This document shows, one piece after another, positions 117 through 39,598 of a stretch of 42,036 nucleotides of DNA. Made by a program: the position numbers and the translations under genes. Below the pieces are notes generated by a model. That model ran no database searches. It was given only the letters and a program-made list of their open reading frames with translations, and was not told the DNA's origin. The DNA comes from Magnetococcales bacterium (GTDB lineage: Bacteria > Pseudomonadota > Magnetococcia > Magnetococcales > UBA8363): contig JADGCN010000018.1 in assembly GCA_015228975.1 (NCBI GenBank), positions 1 through 42,036 of the forward strand, given 5' to 3'. Within the stretch, counting starts at the first letter, position 1, and every line of letters begins with the position of its first letter.

Positions 117-2447
117 ATGCTGAGCGATTTTTTTATCACCGGCTCCATGCCGCCGAGCCTCATGGTTGGGTTTTACGACTGGCGCCTGGTCATGCTCTCC
201 TTCGCCGTTGCCAGTATCACCTCTCTCACCGGCTTGGACATTGCCATTCGCGTCGAATTGTCGCATTCGGAACGGTTTGGGAACGTCCTTTCACGACAGC
301 TTTGGATCGGTGTCGGGGCGTTGGTTATGGGGGTCGGGGTTTGGTCCATGCATTTTGTCGGCATGCTGGCCTACGATATGAGCTGCCGGGTTTCCTACGA
401 TTTTTTGACAACCTTTTTCTCTGTTCTGCCGGCCATTGCTTCCTCCTTTTTCGCCTTGCGACTGGCCGTGCGGAAAAACAGCGGCTTGCAACAACATCTG
501 GCCGGTGGTGTGATCATGGGGTTGGGTATCGGCATCATGCATTATATCGGCATGGCGGCCATGCGGATGCCGGCCCACATTCGTTATCTCCCAGAACTAT
601 TTCTGCTCTCCATTCTGGTTGCCGTTGTTGTATCGTTCATTGCCTTGAGATTTACGGCTCGCATGCTCCAATATCAGGGCCAGGATATCATCATGCAAAA
701 ATTGGTAAGCGCCATGGTCATGGCATTTGCCATTTGTGGCCTGCACTATACGGCGATGTTTGCCGCTGTTTTTATCCCCATTCCCATGTATGCCCTACCT
801 ACCCCCGGCTTTGCCCCCGAGTTCTTTTCCGGGGCCACCTTTTTTCTCGTTTTCTTGATCATGGTTGGCTATTGGCTGCAACTCAATGTCAACGAACTGG
901 AGTTGGCGCAGGCACAGGAAAAAGCGGAACGGGCCAATCATGCGAAAAGTTTATTTTTGGCTAATATGAGTCATGAACTCAGGACTCCCATGAATACCGT
1001 CGTCGGCATGATCGACTTGGTCCTGGATACCAACCTGGATAATCGCCAGAGGCACTATTTGCAAACCGTACATCGTTCTGCCGATGCACTCTTGGCCATT
1101 ATGGACGATATACTCGATTTTTCCTGGCTGGAGGCGGATAAACTGGTATTGGACCAGGTCCCGTTCGCTATCAAACAGGTGGCTGCCGAGGCCATGGCGT
1201 TGATTCATCTGCCAGCAAGTCAAAAGGGACTGCGCTTGACCTGGGAGTATGACGAAGGGCTTCCCTCCCGGGTTGTGGGCGATCCGGTCCGTTTGCGGCA
1301 AGTCCTGATCAACCTGTTGCACAACGCCATCAAATTTACTCAAACCGGTTTTGTCGCCCTTGTTATTAAGCCGGGCAGCTTTGTTGTGAGCGAACAGGCC
1401 AACCGGGTTCCGGTGCATTTCATGGTCATGGATACCGGTGTGGGTGTTCCCAGAAAGGATCAGGAGATTATTTTCCACAGCTTTACCCAGGCGGATGGCA
1501 GCACTACCCGACAATTTGGCGGTACTGGACTGGGGCTGGCCATTTGCCGCCAATTGGTGGAAAAATCGGGAGGGAGCATTTGGGTGGAAAGCGATGGTTC
1601 CACGGGCAGCACCTTCCATTTCAGTATTCCCTATCCCCGTTCCGATACCAGCGAATCGTTGGATCCGGTGCCGTCCACCCCGATCCCCGTTGCCACCACT
1701 TCTCCAACTGAGAAAACCAGACAAGTGGCCATCCTGGCAGTTGATGACGAGGAAAGTAATCTACTCTTGTTGGAACATGCCTTGGAAAAATATGGATTCC
1801 TGGTCTCCCTGGCGCATGACGGCCATGATGCCCTGAATCAATTGGCTCATAAACCTGTCGATTTGATTCTCATGGATATTATGATGCCGATTTTGGATGG
1901 CTTGGAGACAACGCGCAGAATTCGGCAGGGTCAGGTATCCGGGCTTAATCCCCAGGTGCCTGTGATTGCTATTTCCGCTTCGGTCTTGTCGGAACAGCGG
2001 GCGCAATGTTTGGCTGCCGGAATGAACGCTTTCGTGGCCAAACCGGTGCATATCGACAAACTGGTGGCGGTGATTCGTGAACACCTGCCCGGAATGGAAA
2101 ATCCGAAAACGGTATTGGCACATGAGGATCCGGTTACGCAAGCATCCCATGAGGTGACAATGCCAATCTGGGAAACACCATCGGACATGATCGCCCATGT
2201 TGGAAATACCACCGAATCTTGGTTACAGTTGGCGGATGGGCTCAAAGAGATCCATGCCCATTTGGCGGTTGCACAGTACGATCAAGTGGTCCAGCTTGCA
2301 GGTCGCATACAGCGATTTGCCGAACAGCAGGGTGAGGATACCATCTTGCAGGTGGCCATGGACTTGATTTTTGCCGCTCGGAGTCGCGATCTGTTCCAGG
2401 CGGAAGGACATTTGGATCGTTTGCATGCGGAGTGGCCCAGCGACTGA
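117..2447 (+). CDS. MHYT-domain hybrid sensor histidine kinase
   Basis: This is a 776-residue inner-membrane signalling protein. Residues about 15-260 form an MHYT sensor with several membrane spans and three signature repeats (MHFVGM, MHYIGM, LHYTAM); the family is proposed to bind copper and sense diatomic gases. A HisKA domain follows, with the H-box NMSHELRTP and phospho-acceptor His286. Next comes an HATPase domain with N-box NLLHNAIKF and G-boxes DTGVGVP and GGTGLGLAI. Residues about 540-660 are a receiver domain with acceptor Asp587 in LILMDIMMP and the conserved KP. The last 100 residues are not recognised and could be a degenerate HPt. The ATG at 117 aligns with the N-terminus of the paralogue at 36.4-39.5 kb. 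The receiver-PilZ gene 92 bp downstream is a plausible partner. Confidence 0.93.
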
Positions 2448-2539
2448 TGTGGAACATTGTTTGGCTGGGTCGGGGGCCGATTGTTGATAGCACGGGTTGG
2501 CCTGATATCGGGTGGGCAAGTCGAGAGGAGGATTGGGTT

Positions 2540-3514
2540 ATGGCCTTGAAAATATTGGTTGCAGATGATGAGGATGATGCCTGGACTCTGATGCAGGAGC
2601 TGTTAAAAAAAATTGGCGAGGTGGATCGGGTGGCCAACGGTCATGAAGCGGTCGCTGCTTTTATTTTGTCGGCGGTGGATGGAGATCCGTATGATTTGGT
2701 ATTTTTAGATATCATGATGCCGGGAATCGATGGTTACGAGACGGTCAGCCGCATGCGCTCCGCGGAAAGGGAGCAGGGTGTGAAACAAAACGAACGTGCG
2801 GTGATCATCATGACTTCCGCCTTGTTTTCCCGCGAAAATCAGGCGACCGCCATGGCGCAGGGGGCAACGGACTACATCGTCAAGCCGATCATTCGCAGCA
2901 AACTGTACGCAATAATCCGCAACTATTTTCCGGGAACGGGAGAGGATGAAGCCTCGGTTGCGGATGATAAAAGAAAATTTGATCGTCCCTTGTTTCATTC
3001 CCGTGCCGAGTTAATTCTCAAGTCAGGAATTGTAATTACAGGAAGGACAAAGGATGTCAGTTTCAACGGCATCTTGTTTCAAAGTGATCAAGATGCTGCG
3101 GTGTTGCAACCTCATGTCGAAGGATTGCTGCGTATTGCTTTGAGTGATGCGCAGGAAGTCGCGGCCTTCCATGTGGCATTTCCCTGTAAGGTTGTGCGTA
3201 TCAACGAGCAGGGCATTGCCTTGAAGATGTCGGCAGCCGCTGCCCGTACTTTTGCCGATGCCGCCATTGCACCCAAGCCCGTGGCCGTACATCGCACCGG
3301 GGGCAAGGTTGATCCGGGATGGGAAATACTGGACTTTAATCATACCATCCCGGACGATGTTTTGCAAAAATTGCAACGAAAAATTGCCAAAATGTCTCAG
3401 GATGGTCCCGTAGTGGTCTGCTGCAAAAAGGGGACTGCCCATGACGAGGAACTCTATAAGGTGGTGAATATCCGCCATTTGAAGGAAATTCAAAAATTGG
3501 CACCCTCGTCTTGA
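2540..3514 (+). CDS. Response regulator with PilZ-type output domain
   Basis: A soluble protein of 324 residues. I chose the ATG at 2540 because a strong Shine-Dalgarno sequence (GAGAGGAGG, 2523-2531) precedes it and the protein then begins directly at the receiver strand ALKILVADDE. Longer in-frame starts would add 36 residues of no domain. Receiver: acidic pocket DDEDD, acceptor Asp in FLDIMMPGIDG, Thr/Ser switch in IIMTSA, Lys in YIVKPI. Residues about 150-245 carry the c-di-GMP-binding PilZ signatures RxxxR (RKFDR) and DxSxxG (DVSFNG). The last 60 residues are not recognised. Known of the family: PilZ receivers act as c-di-GMP effectors, often for motility or surface behaviour. Inference: it may be phosphorylated by the MHYT kinase encoded just upstream. 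Confidence 0.88.
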   Translation: MALKILVADDEDDAWTLMQELLKKIGEVDRVANGHEAVAAFILSAVDGDPYDLVFLDIMMPGIDGYETVSRMRSAEREQGVKQNERAVIIMTSALFSRENQATAMAQGATDYIVKPIIRSKLYAIIRNYFPGTGEDEASVADDKRKFDRPLFHSRAELILKSGIVITGRTKDVSFNGILFQSDQDAAVLQPHVEGLLRIALSDAQEVAAFHVAFPCKVVRINEQGIALKMSAAAARTFADAAIAPKPVAVHRTGGKVDPGWEILDFNHTIPDDVLQKLQRKIAKMSQDGPVVVCCKKGTAHDEELYKVVNIRHLKEIQKLAPSS

Positions 3515-4811: not shown

Positions 4812-5987
4812 CTATCTTGTGTCAAGGATCTCTTGCACATGGTGGGCGATCATCAAATCTTCGTCGGTTGGCAGGACGTAAGCGGGGATTTTTGATTGTC
4901 GTGTGGTGATACGGGTGGCATGTTGCGTATTGGCGACATCGTCGAGTTCAAACCCCAGCCAGTGCAAACCTTGCAACGTTTTACGCCGTATCAGACTGGA
5001 ATTTTCGCCAATTCCTGCGGTGAACACCGCGCCATCCAGTCCCCCGAGGCTTGCGGTCAGGGCACCGAAATATTGTTGGATGCGGTAGACCATCAAGGCG
5101 ATGGCTTGGGCTGCTTTGGGGTGGTCCGATTGTTCCAGTTGACGCATGTCATGACTGATGCCGGAAATACCTTTGAGACCTGACTGCCGGTACAGGACAT
5201 CCTCGATGGAATCCAGGGACATGTTGAGTTCTCTGGCCATGTACAGCAGGACGCCGGGATCTAAAGTTCCCGACCGGGTCCCCATGGGCAGGCCATCGGC
5301 TGCGGTCATCCCCATGGTGGAATCGACGCACTTGCCGTTGTCGATGGCGCACATGCTGGCACCGTTGCCCAGATGGGCCACGACGACGCGTCCACGGGCC
5401 AACTCTGGATCCAATTCCTTGAGTTTCATGGCGATATATTCGTAGGACAGGCCATGAAAACCATAGCGCCGAACCCCGGCATCGGTCAGGGTGGCCGGCA
5501 AGGGGAAACATTGCGCCTCCTGGCGTTTCGTGGCATGGAAGGCGGTATCGAAGCAGGCCACCTGGGTCAGGCCTGGGTGGAGTGTTGCCAAGGCGCGAAT
5601 GGGTTCCAGATTGTGCGGTTGATGGAGGGGTGCCAGGGGAATCAAGGCTTCCAGGGCGGTGATGACCGCAGCGTCCAAAATGACCGGTTGCGAATAGTGG
5701 ATCCCACCATGTACCACGCGATGACCTGCGGCATCGACCCGGGCGTGTTGTTCCAACCAAGCCAACAAAAATTTCAGGCAGCGATGATGTCCGACATGGT
5801 TTGATCCCAGGAGTTGATCGGGTTCTTTGGGATCTGAACCAATACGGGCGGAAAAAACCGGGTTGGAGGTGATTTCGGCGATTTGCCCGCGAATGCGTCG
5901 CAGGGGTCCCTTGGGGGTCAACTCGAACAGGGAAAATTTCAAGCTGGAAGAGCCGGCATTCAAGACGGCAATGTTTTGTGGTTTCAT
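4812..5987 (-). CDS. ackA: Acetate kinase
   Basis: This 391-residue enzyme is close to the usual 400 of the family. It interconverts acetate plus ATP and acetyl phosphate plus ADP in the cytoplasm. Family motifs are present throughout: the N-terminal NAGSSSLKF, the substrate-site RVVHGG, DTAFHAT, the phosphate-binding HLGNGAS, GTRSGTLDPG, and the C-terminal FTAGIGENSSLIR. The start codon overlaps the stop of the phosphotransacylase gene upstream by four bases (ATGA, 5984-5987), so the two are translationally coupled. Together they form the acetyl-CoA/acetate overflow or assimilation route, with acyl phosphate as intermediate. Propionate or butyrate may be alternative substrates. Confidence 0.95.
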   Translation of the reverse strand: MKPQNIAVLNAGSSSLKFSLFELTPKGPLRRIRGQIAEITSNPVFSARIGSDPKEPDQLLGSNHVGHHRCLKFLLAWLEQHARVDAAGHRVVHGGIHYSQPVILDAAVITALEALIPLAPLHQPHNLEPIRALATLHPGLTQVACFDTAFHATKRQEAQCFPLPATLTDAGVRRYGFHGLSYEYIAMKLKELDPELARGRVVVAHLGNGASMCAIDNGKCVDSTMGMTAADGLPMGTRSGTLDPGVLLYMARELNMSLDSIEDVLYRQSGLKGISGISHDMRQLEQSDHPKAAQAIALMVYRIQQYFGALTASLGGLDGAVFTAGIGENSSLIRRKTLQGLHWLGFELDDVANTQHATRITTRQSKIPAYVLPTDEDLMIAHHVQEILDTR

Positions 5988-6964
5988 AGTGCCAGTTCGC
6001 TCTTTAAGCGCAATCCTTTTTTACGGGCATCCACGACGCGCGCCGCCACGGCGACCGAGGCCATGCGGGTACGGGCATTGTCGGAACGGCTGGTCAATAT
6101 GATGGGAACTTTGGCCCCCAACACAATGCCGGCCCCTTCGGCGTGGGCTTGCCAAGTCAATTGTTTGGCCAGCATGTTGCCGGACTCCAGATCGGGTACC
6201 AGGAGGATGTCGGCAAAGCCGGCCACAGCGCTTTTGATTCCTTTGGTTTGTGCCGCTTCCACGCTGATGGCATTGTCATAGGCTAATGGACCATCGACGA
6301 TACCACCGACGATCTGTCCCCGTTCCGCCATTTTGGAAAGGGCTGCGGCATCCAGGGTGGATTGAATGGCGGGGTTGACGGTTTCCACGGCTGACAGAAC
6401 CGCTACTTTGGGGGTGGGGATGCCCATGGAGTGGGCCAGTTCGATGGCGTTTTGACAGATATCGACCTTGATGGCCAGTGTTGGGGCAATGTTGATGGCG
6501 GCATCGGTGATCAGCAGGGGACGGGGAAAATTGGGGATGTCCATTAAAAAAACGTGGCTGATGCGTCGGTCGGTCCTGAGTCCCTTATTTTTTTTGACGA
6601 CCTCCCCCATGACTTCGTCGGTGTGCAGACTACCCTTCATCAACGCTTCAACCTCGCCGGAGAGGGCCATGGCGACGGCAATTTCTGCGGCATGATGGCT
6701 GTGTTTGGAATCGATAATTTTATAGGGAGAAATGTCGAGTCCTTCTTTTTCGGCGGTTTTTTTGATGCGACCCTTGGGGCCAATGAGAAACGGTACCAGA
6801 AGGTTGGCTTGTGCTGCCTGAATGGCACCTTGCAAAGAATCGTGATCGCAGGGATGGATGATGCCAGTCAGCAAAGGATCCACCGGGGCACAGGAGTGGA
6901 TGAGATGATCATAGCGCCAATATTCTTCCAGGTGGGGTGGTTGGCAGTGTTGATGGTCAGTCAA
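5984..6964 (-). CDS. Phosphate acetyl/butyryltransferase
   Basis: A 326-residue enzyme of the PTA/PTB fold that makes acyl phosphate from acyl-CoA and phosphate. I placed the start at the TTG at 6964, because AAGGAG lies six bases before it. Upstream in-frame codons would add 35 residues with no family resemblance. Recognisable features are GPKGRIKKTAEK, the conserved VDGPLAYDNAIS, and PDLESGNMLAKQ with a C-terminal SRSDNARTRMASVA. It is the short type, without the DRTGG or MaoC extensions of larger forms. It overlaps ackA by 4 bp, and this pairing is the strongest evidence for its role. Whether acetyl or butyryl is preferred cannot be read from the sequence. Confidence 0.88.
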   Translation of the reverse strand: MTDHQHCQPPHLEEYWRYDHLIHSCAPVDPLLTGIIHPCDHDSLQGAIQAAQANLLVPFLIGPKGRIKKTAEKEGLDISPYKIIDSKHSHHAAEIAVAMALSGEVEALMKGSLHTDEVMGEVVKKNKGLRTDRRISHVFLMDIPNFPRPLLITDAAINIAPTLAIKVDICQNAIELAHSMGIPTPKVAVLSAVETVNPAIQSTLDAAALSKMAERGQIVGGIVDGPLAYDNAISVEAAQTKGIKSAVAGFADILLVPDLESGNMLAKQLTWQAHAEGAGIVLGAKVPIILTSRSDNARTRMASVAVAARVVDARKKGLRLKSELAL

Positions 6965-7109
6965 GGGGCACTCCTTGGGATCGTTGGATGGGTGACTTTG
7001 GGGAAAGGTTTGAAAAATAAAACATTCATCCCATTTTACTCGGGGACACTTTCTACCCGCTTGGCTCAATTTTCAAGGGATTTTTTTCACTGGCGTGACA
7101 ATTGCTTCC

Positions 7110-7148
7110 ATTATTGAGAGGGATTATTGAAAGGGATTATTGAAAGAG
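7110..7148 (+). repeat. Three tandem 13-bp direct repeats between divergent genes
   Basis: Three copies of a 13-bp unit (ATTATTGAAAGGG consensus) lie head to tail at 7110-7122, 7123-7135 and 7136-7148, with one or two differences between units. They sit in the 247-bp gap between the leftward phosphotransacylase gene (start 6964) and the rightward gene at 7212. Inference: they could be a binding array for a regulator. They are AT-rich compared with the flanking genes. Confidence 0.8.
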
Positions 7149-7211
7149 ATTTTCCCTGCCGACTATGGAAGAAAATGGGTGCAACCATTCACGATATCGA
7201 GGGATGACACT

Positions 7212-7904
7212 ATGGAATCGTTTGATTTTCAGGCGTGGCCGGAGGGAAGGTCACCATCCGGGGAAGTACAAACATCCACAGATTCGGTTGTTGTTAAACC
7301 GGTGGTGCCGGATACCTGGTTGATGCGTAGCAGACGGTATTGGTCAGCAGCCAGGCTCGGCAAGCTGTCCCTGGCGGTGTTGTCCGTTGTGATCGCCGCC
7401 AAGGCGGGTTTGGCCTTGGACCACAACGTGTTGGCGTTTTCCTTGGAATCGGATCGTGAGTCCCAGCAGCGCATGCTTCCTGCTTCCCAGGCGGTCCAAC
7501 AGTCCGCCTTATCCGGGGATGCCGAATTGTTTCCCGCCGATTTGCGTTTTACCCAATCCTTGAAATGGTTGTCCCAATCGTCCAGTGGACTGAAGTTTGC
7601 CATGCCCGGCGAACATTTCCAGTCCCGGGAAATGCGGCAAGAAACGCAAGCGGCAGTCCGGGAATTGATGGATATCCCCCTCCGGGTGGACAAATCGAGC
7701 CAGGTACGGAATGCGGTTCCACGTGTGCCTGTGCAACATGGGGCTGGAGTGCGCCTGGAGCTGGACCCCGACATGATGAAGTTGGTGGCGGATCTGCCCG
7801 ATCCCGAAGTTTTTGCCAAAGGGTTGCATGGAAAATCACGTGATCCGATAAAAAAAGATCCCTTTACCCAGAAAGAGTTGATAGAATTGGCCTCCATGCG
7901 CTGA
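7212..7904 (+). CDS. Unknown single-span membrane protein
   Basis: A 230-residue protein. The ATG at 7212 follows a GAGGG site at 7199-7203. A longer frame from 7140 lacks a better site and would start inside the 13-bp repeats. There is a hydrophilic cytoplasmic N-terminus of about 45 residues, one membrane span at about 52-75 (LGKLSLAVLSVVIAAKAGLAL), and a long polar, probably periplasmic, C-terminal part without cysteines. Sites rich in Arg and Trp before the span fit the positive-inside rule. I recognise no domain. Its stop is 28 bp before the receiver-PAS-DAC gene, so the two are probably co-transcribed and this may be a membrane partner or input for it. Confidence 0.65.
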   Translation: MESFDFQAWPEGRSPSGEVQTSTDSVVVKPVVPDTWLMRSRRYWSAARLGKLSLAVLSVVIAAKAGLALDHNVLAFSLESDRESQQRMLPASQAVQQSALSGDAELFPADLRFTQSLKWLSQSSSGLKFAMPGEHFQSREMRQETQAAVRELMDIPLRVDKSSQVRNAVPRVPVQHGAGVRLELDPDMMKLVADLPDPEVFAKGLHGKSRDPIKKDPFTQKELIELASMR

Positions 7905-7932: not shown

Positions 7933-9945
7933 ATGGCAGACCAGGATACCCCGGTCATTCTCGTCATAGACGATGACGTCATTATTTTGCAACTCCTGGA
8001 AGCTTTTTTACGGGACAATCGTTTTACCGTCCATCTGGCGGAAAACGGACAGGAAGGTTTAAAAGCGTTTGAAGAGCATCATCCCGATCTGGTGTTGTTG
8101 GATGCGCAGATGCCGATGATGGATGGTTTTGAAACCTGTCGCCGGATAAAAAATCTACCGGGGGGCGGTGATGTGCCGGTGGTTATGGTCACGTCCCTGT
8201 CCAGTAGTGACGCGGTCAACCGGGTTTTTCAGGCCGGGGCGGAGGATTATATTCCCAAACCCATCAACTGGGATCTCCTCAGACAGCGCATGCGGCGTAT
8301 TCTGCGTGACAAGGCTTCCTTCATCGCGCTCCGGGAAAAAGAGGAGCAGATGCGTCTGGCCACCGATTCGCAAAATGATGCCATCATTACCGCCGATGCG
8401 ATGGGTAATATCGTATTTTGGAATCGTGGCGCGGAATCCATTTTTGGCTTCACCAAAGAGGAGGTATTGGGGCGTCCTTTGACGATGCTCATGCCGTTGC
8501 GCTTTGCCAGTCAACACGAAGAGGCTTTGAATCGGGTCCGGGAAACCGGGCGCATCAAACGGGAGGGGCGGCTGCTGGAACTGTTGGGACGGCGCAAAAA
8601 TTTTGAAGAATTTCCAATGGAAATATCCCTGACCCATTGGAACGTTGATGAAAAAATGTTTTTCTCGGCGGTGATACGGGATATCAGCGAGCGCAAGCGT
8701 GCCTTGGGGGGACAGGAAGGCTTGGCGCTGTTCGACTCCCACATTATCGATCACATTCTGGCACTGGCCAACCGGGTTCATCCCGAGGGGGCGGGCTTGT
8801 TGGCGTTTCACCACGTCAAATCAATCATGGAAAACGTTTTTTTGGCAGGTTTGCGTCGCGAGGAGGACTTGCCGGTCCGGGTTAACGTGGCCCTGGGTGA
8901 TGACACGTTACTGATGCAAACATTGGGGACGGAAGTACCGTTCATCCGTTTTGAAACCCCCGTTCCCTTTACCGTTGATTCCCTGGTCAAGCTGGGTCCC
9001 GGTTTTGATCCAACGACCACATCGCTGTTCGTGCGTGCCAAAGAAAGCGACCCGAAAAAATTGGAACTTTGGGGGGCTTTGTTTGCCAGCAACCGGGGCC
9101 AGGGGGTATTGGATCCTTTTCCACGGCAAAAAAGCCCGCCGCAACTTTTGACTATCGTGACCCGCAAGGCGGGTTCGTTGGTGATTCGCTGGGGGGACAG
9201 GATACTGGCCCACTTCCAGGCGGGACATTTTTCCGAACCTTTGGCCAAGCCATTTGAAGATTGCGTGGTCGCCAAGACAATATTGGATGTCGTATCCCGC
9301 CACCCGGAATATCATGTTGCCGGAGAACTGTATTGGGATATTTATCGATCCGTATTGATGTTTTTGCTCAGGAACGCTTCGGTGGATAGTACCGGCGGCA
9401 CGCTGATCTGGCTGCCTGAACACTTCGTGATCAGAACCCAGGAATCCCTCATCGACCGCTATCCACTTTCGGAAAGCCAGGAAGGGGCCAGAATTATTGA
9501 CGAATATTGTCAATTGGAGTTGAAAAGAATGCGCATGGCGGGGGGGAAGAACCCGCCGTCCAGCGTGTCGGACTTCAAACCTTTGGGGCAGGCCTTGCTG
9601 GATATCAAGCGCCGTATGATCGAACACACCGAGTTTTTGTCACATTTAATGCGTATCGACGGGGCCGTGCTGATCTCGCATCGCATCAAACCCATTTCAT
9701 TCGGAGCGATTTTGGCGGCCAATTCATGGAATGGCAGGGTGGTCTATGAGGATCGGGGGTTGTCCCATTCCGGGGGGGATGTGGATCGTTCCAAATACGG
9801 TACCCGGCATGGTTCCGCAATCGATTTCGTCGCCCGTTATCCTGGAGCGGTTGCGTTCGTCTTGTCCCACGATGGGCCGGTTTCCGCCCTGACGTTTCGT
9901 GGGGAAGCGGTGCGCTGGGTGCCCGACTATATCAGCACCAATTGA
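7933..9945 (+). CDS. Receiver-PAS protein with C-terminal diadenylate-cyclase-like domain
   Basis: A cytoplasmic protein of 670 residues with a GAGGAA ribosome site. Residues 1-125 are a receiver (DDDVIIL acidic pair, acceptor Asp57 in LLDAQMPMMDG, KP at about 112). Residues about 135-255 are a PAS/PAC module (ITADAMGNIVFWN, FGFTKEEVLGRP, AVIRDISERKRA). Residues about 270-555 resemble the DACNV-type sensor region known to precede DisA-like domains. Residues about 560-665 carry the DAC signatures: DGA at 576-578 and GTRH at 623-626. In active DisA/CdaA enzymes the second motif is usually RHR; here the third residue is Gly627, so activity is uncertain. Inference: phosphorylation and a PAS ligand would control c-di-AMP synthesis or binding. 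A DAC-like domain behind a receiver is unusual in proteobacteria. Confidence 0.75.
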   Translation: MADQDTPVILVIDDDVIILQLLEAFLRDNRFTVHLAENGQEGLKAFEEHHPDLVLLDAQMPMMDGFETCRRIKNLPGGGDVPVVMVTSLSSSDAVNRVFQAGAEDYIPKPINWDLLRQRMRRILRDKASFIALREKEEQMRLATDSQNDAIITADAMGNIVFWNRGAESIFGFTKEEVLGRPLTMLMPLRFASQHEEALNRVRETGRIKREGRLLELLGRRKNFEEFPMEISLTHWNVDEKMFFSAVIRDISERKRALGGQEGLALFDSHIIDHILALANRVHPEGAGLLAFHHVKSIMENVFLAGLRREEDLPVRVNVALGDDTLLMQTLGTEVPFIRFETPVPFTVDSLVKLGPGFDPTTTSLFVRAKESDPKKLELWGALFASNRGQGVLDPFPRQKSPPQLLTIVTRKAGSLVIRWGDRILAHFQAGHFSEPLAKPFEDCVVAKTILDVVSRHPEYHVAGELYWDIYRSVLMFLLRNASVDSTGGTLIWLPEHFVIRTQESLIDRYPLSESQEGARIIDEYCQLELKRMRMAGGKNPPSSVSDFKPLGQALLDIKRRMIEHTEFLSHLMRIDGAVLISHRIKPISFGAILAANSWNGRVVYEDRGLSHSGGDVDRSKYGTRHGSAIDFVARYPGAVAFVLSHDGPVSALTFRGEAVRWVPDYISTN

Positions 9946-34657: not shown

Positions 34658-34739
34658 TTCCACGTTAACCAGAATTAATGATACAATGCCATCGGATTAC
34701 TGAGACCTTCAAGCGAAAACCGATTGACTGGCATTGTCG

Positions 34740-36365
34740 ATGTCGTTGCGATTAAAAAATGTACTGGAACATGGTGCTGGATTTTTGTCCAAAACACTGT
34801 GCCATCCCCGATACCGATTTATTGGATTGGGGGTGATCCTCAGCGCACTGATGTTTACCCTGTATCTGTCCGTTTCTGGTGTTGGTCTGCTGTTTGACCA
34901 TGTAACAGAAGAAAATCGAATTAAATTCTTCAAAATCATCCTCTGGATGACCGCTGCCTTCGCTTTGAACAGGGTGGTAAGGAAAAATATATGGAACGGG
35001 GTCGTTACCCGTCGATTGGGCTATAGCCCACCCGCCCTGATCGTCAATTTGTCCGCCATTCTGGTTTATTTTTGCGCCATCGTCGGCATCTCTGTCGATG
35101 TGTATCAAAAATCGGTGGTCCATTTCTTGACGGCATCGGGTGTCGTCGGCATTGTGCTGGGATTCGCCCTGCAAAAAATCATAGCTGACATCTTTTCCGG
35201 ATTGGCAATCAACATAGACCCATCATTTCGCTTGCACGACTGGGTGTTGCTGCATGGACGCAATGCGACGCAAAATATTTTCGGCTGCGTCAAAGAGATC
35301 AATTGGCGGACCACACGCATCCAGACCGAAGAAAATGTCATGGTTGTCATTCCAAACAGCGTCATGGCAACTTCCATTGTCAGCAATTATCAGATGCCTG
35401 ACGAAAAAACCCGTTTTTCGGTTTTCCTGTACCTGGATTTTGCTGTTCCCATTGAGCGTGCGATTCGGGTCATCCAATCGGGCATTTTGCAACTGGCTGG
35501 CAAGGAGGGTTTTCTTGACTCTCCCGCTCCCAAAACATTGGTATCGGATATTGCGGAATCTGGAATCAAATATTGTGTCACTTTCTGGCTATTGCCTTCC
35601 AAAACATTTCCCGATGTGGGACGCCACCAAGCCATAACCTCCATCCTGGAGAGTTTGGCCAAATCGGGCATTACTCCGATGTTGCCCAAACAGGAAACCA
35701 TTCTTGCCAGGAACAACAATGCCGGCGTTTTTGATTTTAATCTGCCCCAATATCGTCGACAACTCTTGAGCAGGCAGCAAATTTTTACATGCTTGCACCC
35801 GGATGAGGTCTCAGAGTTAAGCGAAAAATTGCTCTATAGGACATTTCATCCCGGGGAGATCGTTTTTAAAAAGGGGGATGCCGGTTCTTCCATGTTCCTT
35901 CTTGTCGAAGGAATAGCCGATGTGGTGGTGGAAACTTCGGAGTCAACGCCGAAGGGCAACAAAATCAACCGAATCAAATCGGGCGAAATCTTTGGCGAAA
36001 TGGCTCTGTTCACCGGGGAAAAGAGGAGTGCAACACTCTCGTTTCCGACCTCAGCGATTGTTTATGAACTGACCAAGGAATCGTTCCAGCCGATTTTGGA
36101 GAAACGACCCGAATTGGCCAAGGAGTTTGGCTTGTTGATTGCCAAAAGAAAGATGGAAATGTCTGAATTCAGTGATCGTTTGCGTGATGCCGATGCCGAT
36201 ATCGCTTGCAAAGGCGGGCTCATCGAATCCATGATCAATACCTATTTTAATTTTATGCGCGGTCCTGACCGCCGATCCGCCGATCCTAATACGCCCCCAT
36301 ATCCCCCCGAAAAAGAGCGGAGGAAAAGCACGGAGCGCCGGTCCAACGGGACAACAGCCCGATAA
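34740..36365 (+). CDS. MscS-type mechanosensitive channel with cyclic-nucleotide-binding domain
   Basis: A 541-residue protein starting at ATG 34740. Spans lie at about 25-50, 60-75 and 90-150. The MscS pore helix is LTASGVVGIVLGFALQKIIA, followed by the cytoplasmic beta domain (FRLHDWVLLHG, NWRTTRIQTEENVMVVIPNS). Residues about 345-465 are a cNMP-binding domain: FHPGEIVFKKGDAGSSMFLL and the phosphate-binding cassette FGEMALFTGEKRSATL at 418-433, whose Glu and Arg positions suit cAMP or cGMP binding. The C-terminal 60 residues are polar. Fused channels of this kind are gated or modulated by cyclic nucleotide and are known in cyanobacteria and some proteobacteria. Confidence 0.9.
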   Translation: MSLRLKNVLEHGAGFLSKTLCHPRYRFIGLGVILSALMFTLYLSVSGVGLLFDHVTEENRIKFFKIILWMTAAFALNRVVRKNIWNGVVTRRLGYSPPALIVNLSAILVYFCAIVGISVDVYQKSVVHFLTASGVVGIVLGFALQKIIADIFSGLAINIDPSFRLHDWVLLHGRNATQNIFGCVKEINWRTTRIQTEENVMVVIPNSVMATSIVSNYQMPDEKTRFSVFLYLDFAVPIERAIRVIQSGILQLAGKEGFLDSPAPKTLVSDIAESGIKYCVTFWLLPSKTFPDVGRHQAITSILESLAKSGITPMLPKQETILARNNNAGVFDFNLPQYRRQLLSRQQIFTCLHPDEVSELSEKLLYRTFHPGEIVFKKGDAGSSMFLLVEGIADVVVETSESTPKGNKINRIKSGEIFGEMALFTGEKRSATLSFPTSAIVYELTKESFQPILEKRPELAKEFGLLIAKRKMEMSEFSDRLRDADADIACKGGLIESMINTYFNFMRGPDRRSADPNTPPYPPEKERRKSTERRSNGTTAR

Positions 36366-36399: not shown

Positions 36400-39300
36400 T
36401 CACTTGATCTTATCATGGGCCCAGGCCTCAAAGTGGGCCAAGCAGGCTTCGAACTGAAATTGATCGAGTTCTTTTCGTATTGCCTTGAGTCTGGCAACAC
36501 CCGATGCATCGTGAACCAGTCGTTCCAGTTCTTCGACAACGGTTTCCACCGCGGAATCGTACGATGCCAAAAGCTCTATGGCACGATTGATGAGGCTCCC
36601 CAAGTGCTGTGGATCAATGCCAGGATTGCAGGAGGGGTGGGTATCTTCGAGACCCATCGGTGACGGGAATTGGGTTTCAATGCTGTTGATGACGAGATGC
36701 AGTTCCCGATCTGCTTTTTCAATGAGTTCGGCAATCTCGGTGGCCCTTTCGGGCATTTCTGCAATTTTCTCAATAACAGCCATGTGTTGCGAAAGTGTTT
36801 TGGCTCCAATTGTTGCCGAAACACCTTTGAGGGCATGGGCCCTGCGACTCAGAGCGGTGAAATGACCATCAGCCAAATGTTGCCGCATCTGGATACAGGT
36901 TTGGCTCTGGTTGACGGCAAATTTGCGAAGGATACTCTGATAGAGGGTGGTATTACCCGCCACATGGCGTAAACCGCAGTCGGTATCCATTCCGGGCAAA
37001 TCGAGAAGGGGAGAAGGGGGAACAGGGGGAGCTTCCGGCGCAGGGAAATGTTCTTGCAGGGGGGGATGACACCTGCTTCTGCCAGGGATCCATTTGGCCA
37101 GGGTGAGGTAGAGTTTGCCAGTGTCTATGGGTTTGGCGATGTGATCCTGCATCCCCGCTTCCAGACACATGTCTCGGTCGCTCGACATGGCGTTGGCCGT
37201 CATAGCCAGTATGGGCAGGGTGGCAAAACGCGGATCCTTGCGAATGGTCCGGGTGGCCTCAAGCCCATCCATGACGGGCATCTGCATGTCCATCAATACA
37301 CAATCCAGAGGTTCTCTGGCCACCAAGTCGACCGCCTCCTGGCCGTTTTGCACCGTGAACACCTTGATTTTGGCCTGTTCCAGCAATTCCTTCCCCACTT
37401 GTTGGTTGATTTCGTTATCGTCGGCCAACAAAATCCTGGCCCCCTCAAGTGACGCCATATGATCCTGCGGGCCATACGCAACCGTTCCAGAGGCCATGTG
37501 TCCGCCGGAACAGTTGAGATTGAGGACATCACAGAGAACCGCGAAAAGACGACCGGCAGGAATCGGTTTGACCAAATAATGATCGATATGGGATTCCTGG
37601 ATGGCCAGTTTGACGATGGCTTCTGAACCATAATTGGTGGCCAGGATGATTGGCTTTTGGTGATGCAAACCCAGCGAATGGCGCAAGATAGCGGCGGTGG
37701 TGATACCATCCATGGTCGGCATCATGAAATCCATGAGGATCAGGTCAAAAGGGGTTCCCAGGGATTCGGCTTCTTCGGCGAGGAGGATCGCTTCAGGTCC
37801 ATCGTGCGCCTTGGTAACCTGCATGTGGAATGCGTTCAAATAGCCAGTCAGGGTGGTCAGTGAGGTTTTGTTGTCATCGACGACCAGCACCCTTATGTCA
37901 CGCAACAAATCCCGGGAAGAAAGGATGGGCTCCTTGACGTCGGGCCGGGCGATACCCATGGGGATATCGAATAGGATCTGGCTTCCCTTCCCGGGAGCGC
38001 TTGTTACCTCGACAGCCCCTCCCATCATGGTGATCAGGCGTTTGGCGATGGTCAGCCCGAGGCCGGTGCCGCCAAACTTGCGGGTAATGGTAGTATCGGC
38101 CTGAGAAAAAGCCATGAACAGCTTTTCTTGTTGCTCTCGGGTCATACCGATGCCGGTATCGCGTACGATAAATTGCAGTCGGACTTCGGTATCTTTCCGC
38201 TCCAGTAAGCGAACCCTCAGGGTGACATCGCCTGTTTCAGTAAATTTAACGGCATTGTTGGTCAAATTGAGGAGAATTTGTCCCAGACGTAAGGGATCAC
38301 CTATCAGGTTCGTGGGAATGTCCGGGGATGTATCCACGATGAATTCCAATTTTTTTTCCTGGACCCGCAAGGCAACCATGACCGTAAGGCTTTCCAACAC
38401 TTCTTCCAGAGAAAATTCGATGGCCTCCATATCCAGACGCCCCGCCTCGATTTTGGAAAAATCGAGGATGTCGTTGATGAGACGCAGCAGGGAAGTCGCG
38501 GAAAGATGGACTTTGTGGATGTAATCCTGCTGCCGGGGATCCAGGGATGTCTGCAGGCACAGGTGACTTAAGCCAATGATGGCGTTCATGGGAGTGCGGA
38601 TTTCATGGCTCATGTTGGCCAGGAACATTCCTTTGGCATGGTTGGCCTGATCCGCTTTTTTCTGCGCCTGGGCCAGTTCTTTCTCGTTCAGGTTGAGCTG
38701 AAACCAATAGCCGGACAGGATCAGGAACATCAGAAAGAATACCGCACCGGAAAAAAAATCGTGACTGACCGATCCACTGATATCGACCGGGGTTGTGGAG
38801 GGGATGAAAACCGCAGCCTGCATGGCTGTGTAATGCAATCCACAGATGGCAATGGCCATGATCAAGCCGCTGACCAGTTTGGGCAGGATGGTGTTGTCAT
38901 GACGGCGTTGGACCATGCGGGCGGTTATGGCCAGGGCGATGAAAGAAGCGACCACGGCAACCAGGACCGCGAGAAAAAACAGATCGGTCCGGTAGCGGAT
39001 ATGGGCGGTCATGCGCATGGCATCCATGCCGATGAAATGCATGCTGCCGATACCGGATCCCATGATCAAGCTGGCCAGAGGCAGATGCTTCCAACTGCTG
39101 TTTTTGGCAATGGCCAGGCGCAGGGCGAAAAAAGAACTGGCGATGGCAGGTACGATGGAAAGGAGGGTGGTCAGCAGATGGAAATAGGTATCACGGCTCA
39201 TGTGAAACGCCAGCATGCCGATAAAGTGCATGGACCAGACACCGATTCCCATGACCAGGGCACCGACGCCATACCAGAGCAGCCTGGCCTTTTCCGTTTG

Positions 39301-39471
39301 CAGGCGTTCCGATTTGAGCATCTCGACGCGGATGGCGATATCCAGACTGGTCAGCGAGGTGATGTTGGCAACGATAAATGAGAGGAGGACCAGACGCCAA
39401 TCGTAGGATCCATGCGCTATCATTTCGTGGGGAAGGGGACCGAACAGGAAAAAATGAGGAAACATGCTCAT
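36400..39471 (-). CDS. MHYT hybrid histidine kinase with two receivers and HPt
   Basis: A 1023-residue inner-membrane signalling protein, counted from the ATG at 39471. A longer frame begins at 39522 with a TTG and is less likely. The N-terminal MHYT sensor (repeats MHFIGM, MHFIGM, LHYTAM) is a paralogue of the kinase at 0.1-2.4 kb. HisKA has His289 in NMSHEIRTP; HATPase shows NLTNNAVKF and GGTGLGLTI. Two receivers follow, with acceptors Asp581 (LILMDFMMP) and Asp728 (CVLMDMQMP), then an HPt domain with His879 in RRAHALKGV. The C-terminal 145 residues are a helical tail. The chain His-Asp-Asp-His allows a full phosphorelay within one protein, to a regulator encoded elsewhere. Confidence 0.92.
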
Positions 39472-39598
39472 GATCTGGCTGGTAACGAAATAAATAAGGA
39501 AAGTCAAGCAACAACCAGGCAAGAATTGCCACGGAAAATTGTGTCGGATGGGTAAAGCCTACCGCTTGGAATGCCGATACGTGTTAAGGAGATGCCGG

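Follow-up and report, generated by a model that had tools for sequence, protein, structure and literature searches.

A Magnetococcales receiver-PAS-DACNV protein with a predicted, divergent diadenylate cyclase output domain

Among response regulators, the diguanylate cyclases PleD and WspR have receivers that gate the synthesis of a cyclic dinucleotide, c-di-GMP being made by their GGDEF output domain. PMC7288161 reports no structural similarity between GGDEF and the diadenylate cyclase (DAC) domain. In the Listeria CdaA structure 4RV7 the ATP/metal site involves the side chains of Leu31, Asp71, Thr102, Arg103, His104, Ser122 and Glu124 and the main chain of Leu88, Gly101 and Glu123 (PMC7288161); the third Arg of the RHR motif is absent from this list. 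Replacement of RHR by AAA is reported to inactivate both mycobacterial DacA and CdaS and, in DacA, to abolish ATP binding as well. In these published mutants all three residues are altered together, so that the third Arg is not separated from the other two. Hydrolysis of c-di-AMP by PgpH is reported in the literature; PMC3328451, PMC4568413 and PMC8573169 were further sources. The association of DACNV with a DAC-like domain is an already annotated kind, carrying a Pfam name and an NCBI product name. A survey from 2015 probably described such DAC-linked domains; no relevant paper on DACNV or its sister names was found in the literature searched.

The window, a whole stretch of 42,036 nucleotides of a Magnetococcales assembly, carries at 7933–9945 a gene whose protein has a solid anatomy (Table 1) and an activity that is predicted only. 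The protein is read here as a response regulator with a divergent diadenylate cyclase output, which would make it an input-gated c-di-AMP synthase. We give this reading a probability of about one half and favour it over that of a nucleotide sensor. Since the DACNV-DAC architecture was already annotated, the protein is a variant only, whose new features are the presence of receiver and PAS domains and the missing third Arg.

Table 1. Coordinates of the features of the locus (window positions) and of the PgpH-type gene of the source genome (locus handle).
Feature	Position	Strand	Remarks
Acetate kinase (ackA), conserved divergent neighbour	4812..5987	-	PF00871 9.5e-113; 6/7 loci
Phosphate acetyl/butyryltransferase (pta), conserved divergent neighbour	5984..7069	-	PF01515 1.9e-41; 6/7 loci
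Predicted single-span membrane protein, 254 aa, no Pfam family	7140..7904	+	adjoins gene in 6/7 loci
Receiver-PAS-DACNV-DAC-like protein	7933..9945	+	670 aa, ATG start
Receiver domain, residues 9-120	7957..8292	+	PF00072 (Response_reg), 7.9e-30
Predicted phospho-acceptor Asp57	8101..8103	+	kept in 25/25 receiver-bearing members
PAS domain, residues 148-253	8374..8691	+	PF13426 (PAS_9), 1.6e-15
DACNV, "probable sensor domain", residues 294-382	8812..9078	+	PF21751, 3.9e-12, above cut-off
Divergent DAC-like domain, about residues 465-665	9325..9927	+	PF02457 E 0.015 (full protein), hhalign
GGTLI (488-492) opposite GALI adenine-binding motif, exact register unsure	9394..9408	+	profile alignment puts GALI on 488-491
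DGA motif, 576-578	9658..9666	+	D 65, G 64, A 65 of 65
GTRH-G, 623-627: retains GxRH, has another residue for the third Arg of RHR	9799..9813	+	G, R, H 65/65; 627 never R
S-H-D (645-647) opposite (V/I)SEE; Asp647 in place of metal-binding Glu	9865..9873	+	S 65/65, D 65/65
PgpH-type protein of the source genome	L118:4390-6723		HDED, 7TM, HD domains (Pfam); HD-type metal residues by eye

Translation of the ORF located Asp57, the DGA and GTRH motifs and Gly627 at the positions given by the first-pass annotation, and Pfam bore out its claim that receiver, PAS and a DAC-related domain share one chain, DACNV itself being a curated family whose cut-off the protein exceeds. The receiver scores 103.7 bits, past the PF00072 threshold of 30.2, and has the acidic pair, phospho-Asp, Thr/Ser and Lys; D13, D14, D57, T87 and K109 are found in the alignment in 25/25 receiver-bearing members. 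DACNV scores 46.6 bits against a cut-off of 27 for PF21751, a match shared by 64/64 members. Of the long DACNV-like region described earlier, DACNV proper covers some 90 residues (294–382) and not all of 260–560. Pfam identifies no family over cut-off in residues 385–465, where an Argonaute-N model reaches E 0.16 at 391–424. The DAC-like domain begins near residue 465 in the profile alignment; its GALI-like strand is separated from DGA by an insert that varies among members and measures some 45 residues. Its PF02457 match spans residues 575–651, with 15.3 bits in the full protein and 16.8 bits in the core, below the cut-off of 27. The profile search that had been proposed as a check succeeded for DACNV and fell short of the cut-off for DAC. 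As to a different family fitting residues 270–665 better, DACNV is the best match to its own segment (294–382), and the only higher C-terminal matches were to SEC13 chains in a PDB profile search, judged spurious. The PADLOC models SduA (5.4e-7, residues 1–66), PDC-M60B (2.5e-4, 8–64) and PD-T4-6 (0.0038, 5–128) all match within the receiver part and were rejected as signs of a defence function.

DACNV occurs in 43/398 genomes of the phylum sample, namely in 43 of the 48 genomes of the order and in 0/350 others. From 67 distinct sequences, exclusion of two short contig-end ones left 65 full-length proteins that come from 40 of the 43 genomes, the remaining three having matches at contig ends. 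Alignments A1 and A6 have 64 rows, L015 (open 3′ end) being also excluded; alignment A4 holds 34 of these 64 rows, picked for spread, with the DACNV match G137:C149 outside the set. For the residue alignment of the 65, proteins longer than 430 residues were trimmed to their last 415. The family also occurs across the order as stand-alone DACNV-DAC proteins and as GAF fusions. Pfam found a receiver in 25, a PAS domain in 25 and GAF in 13 of the 64 scanned members, which leaves by subtraction 26 with neither receiver nor GAF; the receiver, GAF and stand-alone classes were assigned from the tree and from lengths, in agreement with these counts (25, 13). The 25 receiver-bearing rows are grouped in the tree (100/99), and the 13 GAF rows, joined by a single stand-alone row, make up a clade (100/100). 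Since the tree is midpoint-rooted and carries a warning of long branches that meet, any direction of fusion read from it is an inference. Families f1 (that of the protein studied here), f9 and f10 (one genome) have receiver- or GAF-bearing copies only in the tree and 0 stand-alone ones, so that any c-di-AMP made there by the family would be made under such control.

The protein has orthologues 73–98% identical in loci L004–L008. Its core is 98% identical to that encoded by Magnetococcales contig PEAK01000032.1 and 71–74% identical to those of four other contigs. Genomes of the order have up to three DACNV proteins, and the source assembly, 75.9% complete, has three full ones: two with receiver and PAS (7933–9945 and L001) and one with GAF (L003). 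It also contains, at a contig end, a DACNV-DAC fragment of 53 aa (L128:2034-2195), whose visible end resembles paralogues of G026/G133 and not L001; the fragment is possibly an assembly contamination. The core had 0 matches in plasmids or phages at E <= 0.01. The L009 protein, compared to plasmids at E <= 10, retrieved six records, of which two are from Hymenobacter (2e-16, 6e-7) and four, at E 4–10, were taken as chance. Among 34 and 1 candidate stretches, the viral contigs yielded 0 relatives.

The putative active site combines strict conservation with two consistent departures from canonical DAC. Residues G488, D576, A578, G623, R625, H626, S645, D647 and G648 are identical in 65/65 of the Magnetococcales proteins. 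The GxRHRxA signature of PF02457 is represented by its GxRH portion in 65/65 and by its third Arg in 0/65, residue 627 being N (23), A (14), T (12), G (7), S (7), I (1) or H (1). The (V/I)SEE signature retains its Ser in 65/65, while E-E is replaced by Q/H-D with Asp in 65/65. Thr624 is found in 51/65; the 14 proteins that lack it comprise every one of the 13 GAF members and 1/27 stand-alone proteins. In terms of the Listeria site, the equivalents of Asp71, Arg103, His104 and Ser122 (Asp576, Arg625, His626 and Ser645) are kept in 65/65, Glu124 is conservatively replaced by Asp647 in 65/65, and the position equivalent to Leu31 is unsure. The first-pass annotation had taken Gly627 as a pointer to binding rather than synthesis. 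As argued, this is unsupported: the third Arg is gone in every one of the 65 proteins while the listed CdaA side chains are kept or conservatively replaced. Gly627 alone does not imply a dead enzyme, because these side chains persist and the 4RV7 list omits the third Arg, and it decides neither for enzyme nor for sensor, because the RHR to AAA mutants alter three residues at once. A binding-only role of the DAC-like domain is possible.

In the favoured reading, phosphorylation of Asp57 together with the state of the PAS domain would place two protomers head to head. Two ATP molecules would be held by Asp576, Thr624-Arg625-His626 and Ser645, with a metal on Asp647, and joined to c-di-AMP in a catalysis that would dispense with the third Arg. 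The product would be removed by the PgpH-type membrane HD phosphodiesterase of the order. A PgpH-type gene (7TMR-HDED, PF07697) is found in 46/48 genomes of the order and in all 27 of those with completeness of 90% or more and contamination of 5% or less; the two genomes without it are 69% and 57% complete. By analogy with PgpH, this enzyme could hydrolyse c-di-AMP. The search of the 48 genomes with PF02457 yielded matches at E <= 0.001 in nine, three of them above the cut-off and the best at 28.7 bits, and the matches in these nine genomes are DACNV members or belong to a second DAC-like family. Whole canonical DAC matches in the phylum score 107–150 bits, one genome (G184) having two split pieces, and no match of such strength was found by this search in the order. 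CD-NTases (SMODS) are present in 2/48. The DACNV-DAC proteins are the leading candidate for the c-di-AMP source of the order because a PgpH-type gene is nearly universal there, canonical-strength DAC was not found and CD-NTases are rare. Their co-occurrence with PgpH is confounded by descent, since all data come from one clade. PF07697 is found without a DACNV match in four genomes of the order (G101, G129, G165 and G173; 93, 75, 71 and 76% complete). Outside the order, PF07697 was found in 0/73 DAC genomes of the phylum sample; the one strong match, in G032, comes from a genome that matched neither DAC nor DACNV, and three further ones are below cut-off. Canonical DAC is common in phylum family f18, where the same sample gave no PF07697 match. 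Among 14 control genomes, three have PF07697, all within the 11 having DAC. Known c-di-AMP riboswitches (strict filters, at most 54 candidates scored per genome) and DarA were each found in 0/48 genomes of the order.

Beyond the single locus, it is tentatively proposed, at a little under even odds, that the family is an order-wide diadenylate cyclase branch lacking the third Arg, represented in several families only by receiver-PAS or GAF fusions, driven by phosphorelay and supplying the PgpH-type enzyme. Several observations count against a synthase: the loss of the third Arg, the change of the metal Glu to Asp, Thr in 0/13 GAF members, a DAC score below cut-off and an hhalign probability of 36% (see below), together with PgpH-type and DAC genes that are not paired elsewhere in the phylum sample, the four genomes of the order with PF07697 but no DACNV match, the riboswitch and DarA searches that found neither, and structure models of low pLDDT that were uninformative.

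The strongest alternative, possible at odds clearly below even, is that the DAC-like domain has lost catalysis and serves as a nucleotide sensor: it would bind ATP or a cyclic dinucleotide and relay the binding, along with the input from receiver and PAS, to a partner, perhaps the upstream membrane protein. Loss in 65/65 of an Arg that is invariant in 23 canonical sequences, themselves selected for the motif, fits this proposal, as do the loss of activity and of ATP binding in the RHR to AAA mutants, the multiple paralogues per genome, the recurrent membrane-protein neighbour and the null results for riboswitch and DarA. It has to be reconciled, however, with five listed ATP/metal side-chain positions that are kept in 65/65 and with published mutants in which the third Arg is not separated from its two neighbours; it also leaves the PgpH-type enzyme of the order without an identified c-di-AMP source.

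The presence upstream of a gene for a predicted single-span membrane protein, as noted earlier, was confirmed: the ORF ends 28 bp before the 7933 gene, and the in-frame ATG at 7212 is more probable as its start codon than the TTG at 7140. Its product has one hydrophobic stretch (73–94), and the 19-residue hydropathy window exceeds 1.6 in 5/6 sequences and is 1.47 in the sixth. The order divergent ackA/pta, membrane protein gene and receiver-PAS-DACNV-DAC gene is conserved in six of the seven loci (the present one, L004–L007 and L123; not L008), and because of this adjacency the membrane protein is kept as a possible partner. Acetyl phosphate is able to phosphorylate receivers. PMC11323494 describes an effect of acetyl-phosphate-dependent acetylation on DisA in an actinobacterium. 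A link of ackA/pta, through acetyl phosphate, to the receiver-DACNV-DAC protein is speculation. The window codes for hybrid histidine kinases at 117–2447 and 36400–39522; their BLAST cluster is absent beside the gene in the short flanks of L004–L008 and L123, and neither is put forward as the kinase partner. The first of them, an MHYT hybrid histidine kinase, is followed by a receiver-PilZ protein (2432–3514), the two being perhaps a c-di-GMP-responsive pair. A mechanosensitive-channel domain fused to a cyclic-nucleotide-binding domain is encoded at 34734–36365 of the window. In the stretch L122:2495-7138, an 842-aa ORF downstream of the GAF-DACNV-DAC gene of the source genome clusters by BLAST with the two hybrid histidine kinases; no such ORF lay next to the GAF paralogue in L125.

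It is unlikely that the enzyme is active but, its chemistry changed by an altered phosphate pocket, forms something other than c-di-AMP, such as a linear dinucleotide or a different cyclic one. The consistent loss of the third Arg and the change of Glu to Asp in an otherwise fixed site would suit this reading; no positive sign of such a product was seen, and the presence of the PgpH-type gene in nearly all genomes of the order speaks against it.

The synthase and sensor readings both take the carboxyl-terminal domain as a DAC, and its common descent with canonical DAC is supported by profile comparisons. Taken singly, 63/64 members match PF02457 at E <= 0.1 (best 3.3e-5). Alignment by hhalign to canonical DAC from the same phylum (alignment A3, 23 sequences; from 30 loci, four failed the motif pattern and three more were left out) gave P 3.8e-4, but the probability, over 26 columns, was only 36%. 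When the alignment-confidence threshold was switched off, DGA paired with DGA, GTRH with GTRH, VLSHD with VVSEE and GGTL (488–491) with GALI, in conserved order, the GALI part not being confidently aligned. The real score of 31.9 was reached by 0/300 column-permuted decoys (maximum 26.3), and the reversed profile scored 10.5. Addition of one Hymenobacter row with the canonical motif changed P to 2.4e-5 and the probability to 75%. The second DAC-like Magnetococcales family, represented in its alignment by two of three sequences (L114 not included), gave P 3.2e-6 to the DACNV-DAC family and 1.5e-4 to canonical DAC over 117 columns. The domain is read as a divergent DAC because of these many weak matches, the decoys, the second-family links and the Hymenobacter GTRHRAA relative. 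Structure prediction was poor, two models based on the protein studied here and L004–L008 having mean pLDDT of 35.0 and 42.5. Foldseek with the second model returned 123 weak matches, 0 at E <= 0.001, with CdaA chains at ranks 4, 7 and 8 among the best 50 of the 123; these matches do not count here as evidence for a fold. In the PDB profile search with the C-terminal part, SEC13 (E 0.0035) ranked above DisA (0.99) and diadenylate cyclase (1.1). It was rejected as accidental: one stretch of ~68 profile positions aligns on a WD40 propeller, where H-x-S-A-V-x-x-V...S-x-D-G-x-I happens to resemble a WD40 repeat, and the Pfam scan of the members lists no WD40 family. The whole-core profile listed 0 DAC chains, and the core alone found two chance matches only. 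That the region is not a DAC and its motifs arose by chance would agree with the sub-threshold PF02457 score, the SEC13 ranking, the whole-core result, the poor models and the lack of Foldseek matches at E <= 0.001, but is very improbable given the near-universal DAC match among members, the decoy result of 0/300, the Hymenobacter relative and the CdaA chains in the weak Foldseek list.

If the protein is active, a two-component system would control c-di-AMP synthesis directly, in the way known for c-di-GMP from PleD-type proteins; the RHR rule for recognising diadenylate cyclases would overlook a branch; and it would become clear how an order that conserves a PgpH-type gene, and in which no canonical cyclase was found, could make c-di-AMP. 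The protein could be the missing c-di-AMP cyclase of the magnetotactic order Magnetococcales. If inactive, it would be a clean example of a response regulator in which a cyclase domain has been turned into a nucleotide sensor.

Among the closest known systems is the stand-alone WP_243520307.1 of Hymenobacter monticola ("putative sensor domain DACNV-containing protein"), which has DACNV followed by a DAC-like domain, DGA and S-Q-D-G. It differs by an intact GTRHRAA, by having no receiver or PAS found, and by being plasmid-borne in a Bacteroidota species. The Magnetococcales profile aligns to it over positions 30–399 of 410 (102 bits, E 1.6e-28 for 100,000 sequences), and its own DAC score of 24.9 bits (E 1.6e-5) is also under the cut-off. 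Its matches to one E. coli plasmid (0.03) and 13 coliphage records (0.01–0.03) involve the same 41% of the query, mostly against tail tape-measure proteins, and were attributed to chance. The DACNV gene of Hymenobacter volaticus (L127:7896-9138) is seemingly interrupted and annotated as two adjacent genes. The second DAC-like Magnetococcales family, found in 3/299 genomes searched, all three of this order (L113, L114 and L115/L076; L075:18-3035), is DAC-related and shares G-x-R-H-A and S-Q-D-G-P in L113 and L115, but these two have DGC for DGA and the family has no DACNV match. A copy of this family is preceded by an unknown protein and followed by a ClpX/HslU-like AAA+ ATPase in a cassette-like layout; the DAC-like gene had 0 PADLOC matches. 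With the canonical CdaA/DacA, DisA and CdaS (PF02457) the Magnetococcales protein shares the DGA and GxRH positions, the Ser of (V/I)SEE, a GALI-like position of unsure register and the order of these elements, whereas it lacks the third Arg, has S-Q/H-D for SEE, an insert before DGA, a sub-cut-off score and other partner domains. With PleD and WspR it would share the working principle, receiver-gated synthesis of a cyclic dinucleotide, and differ in the output, which in those proteins is GGDEF and c-di-GMP.
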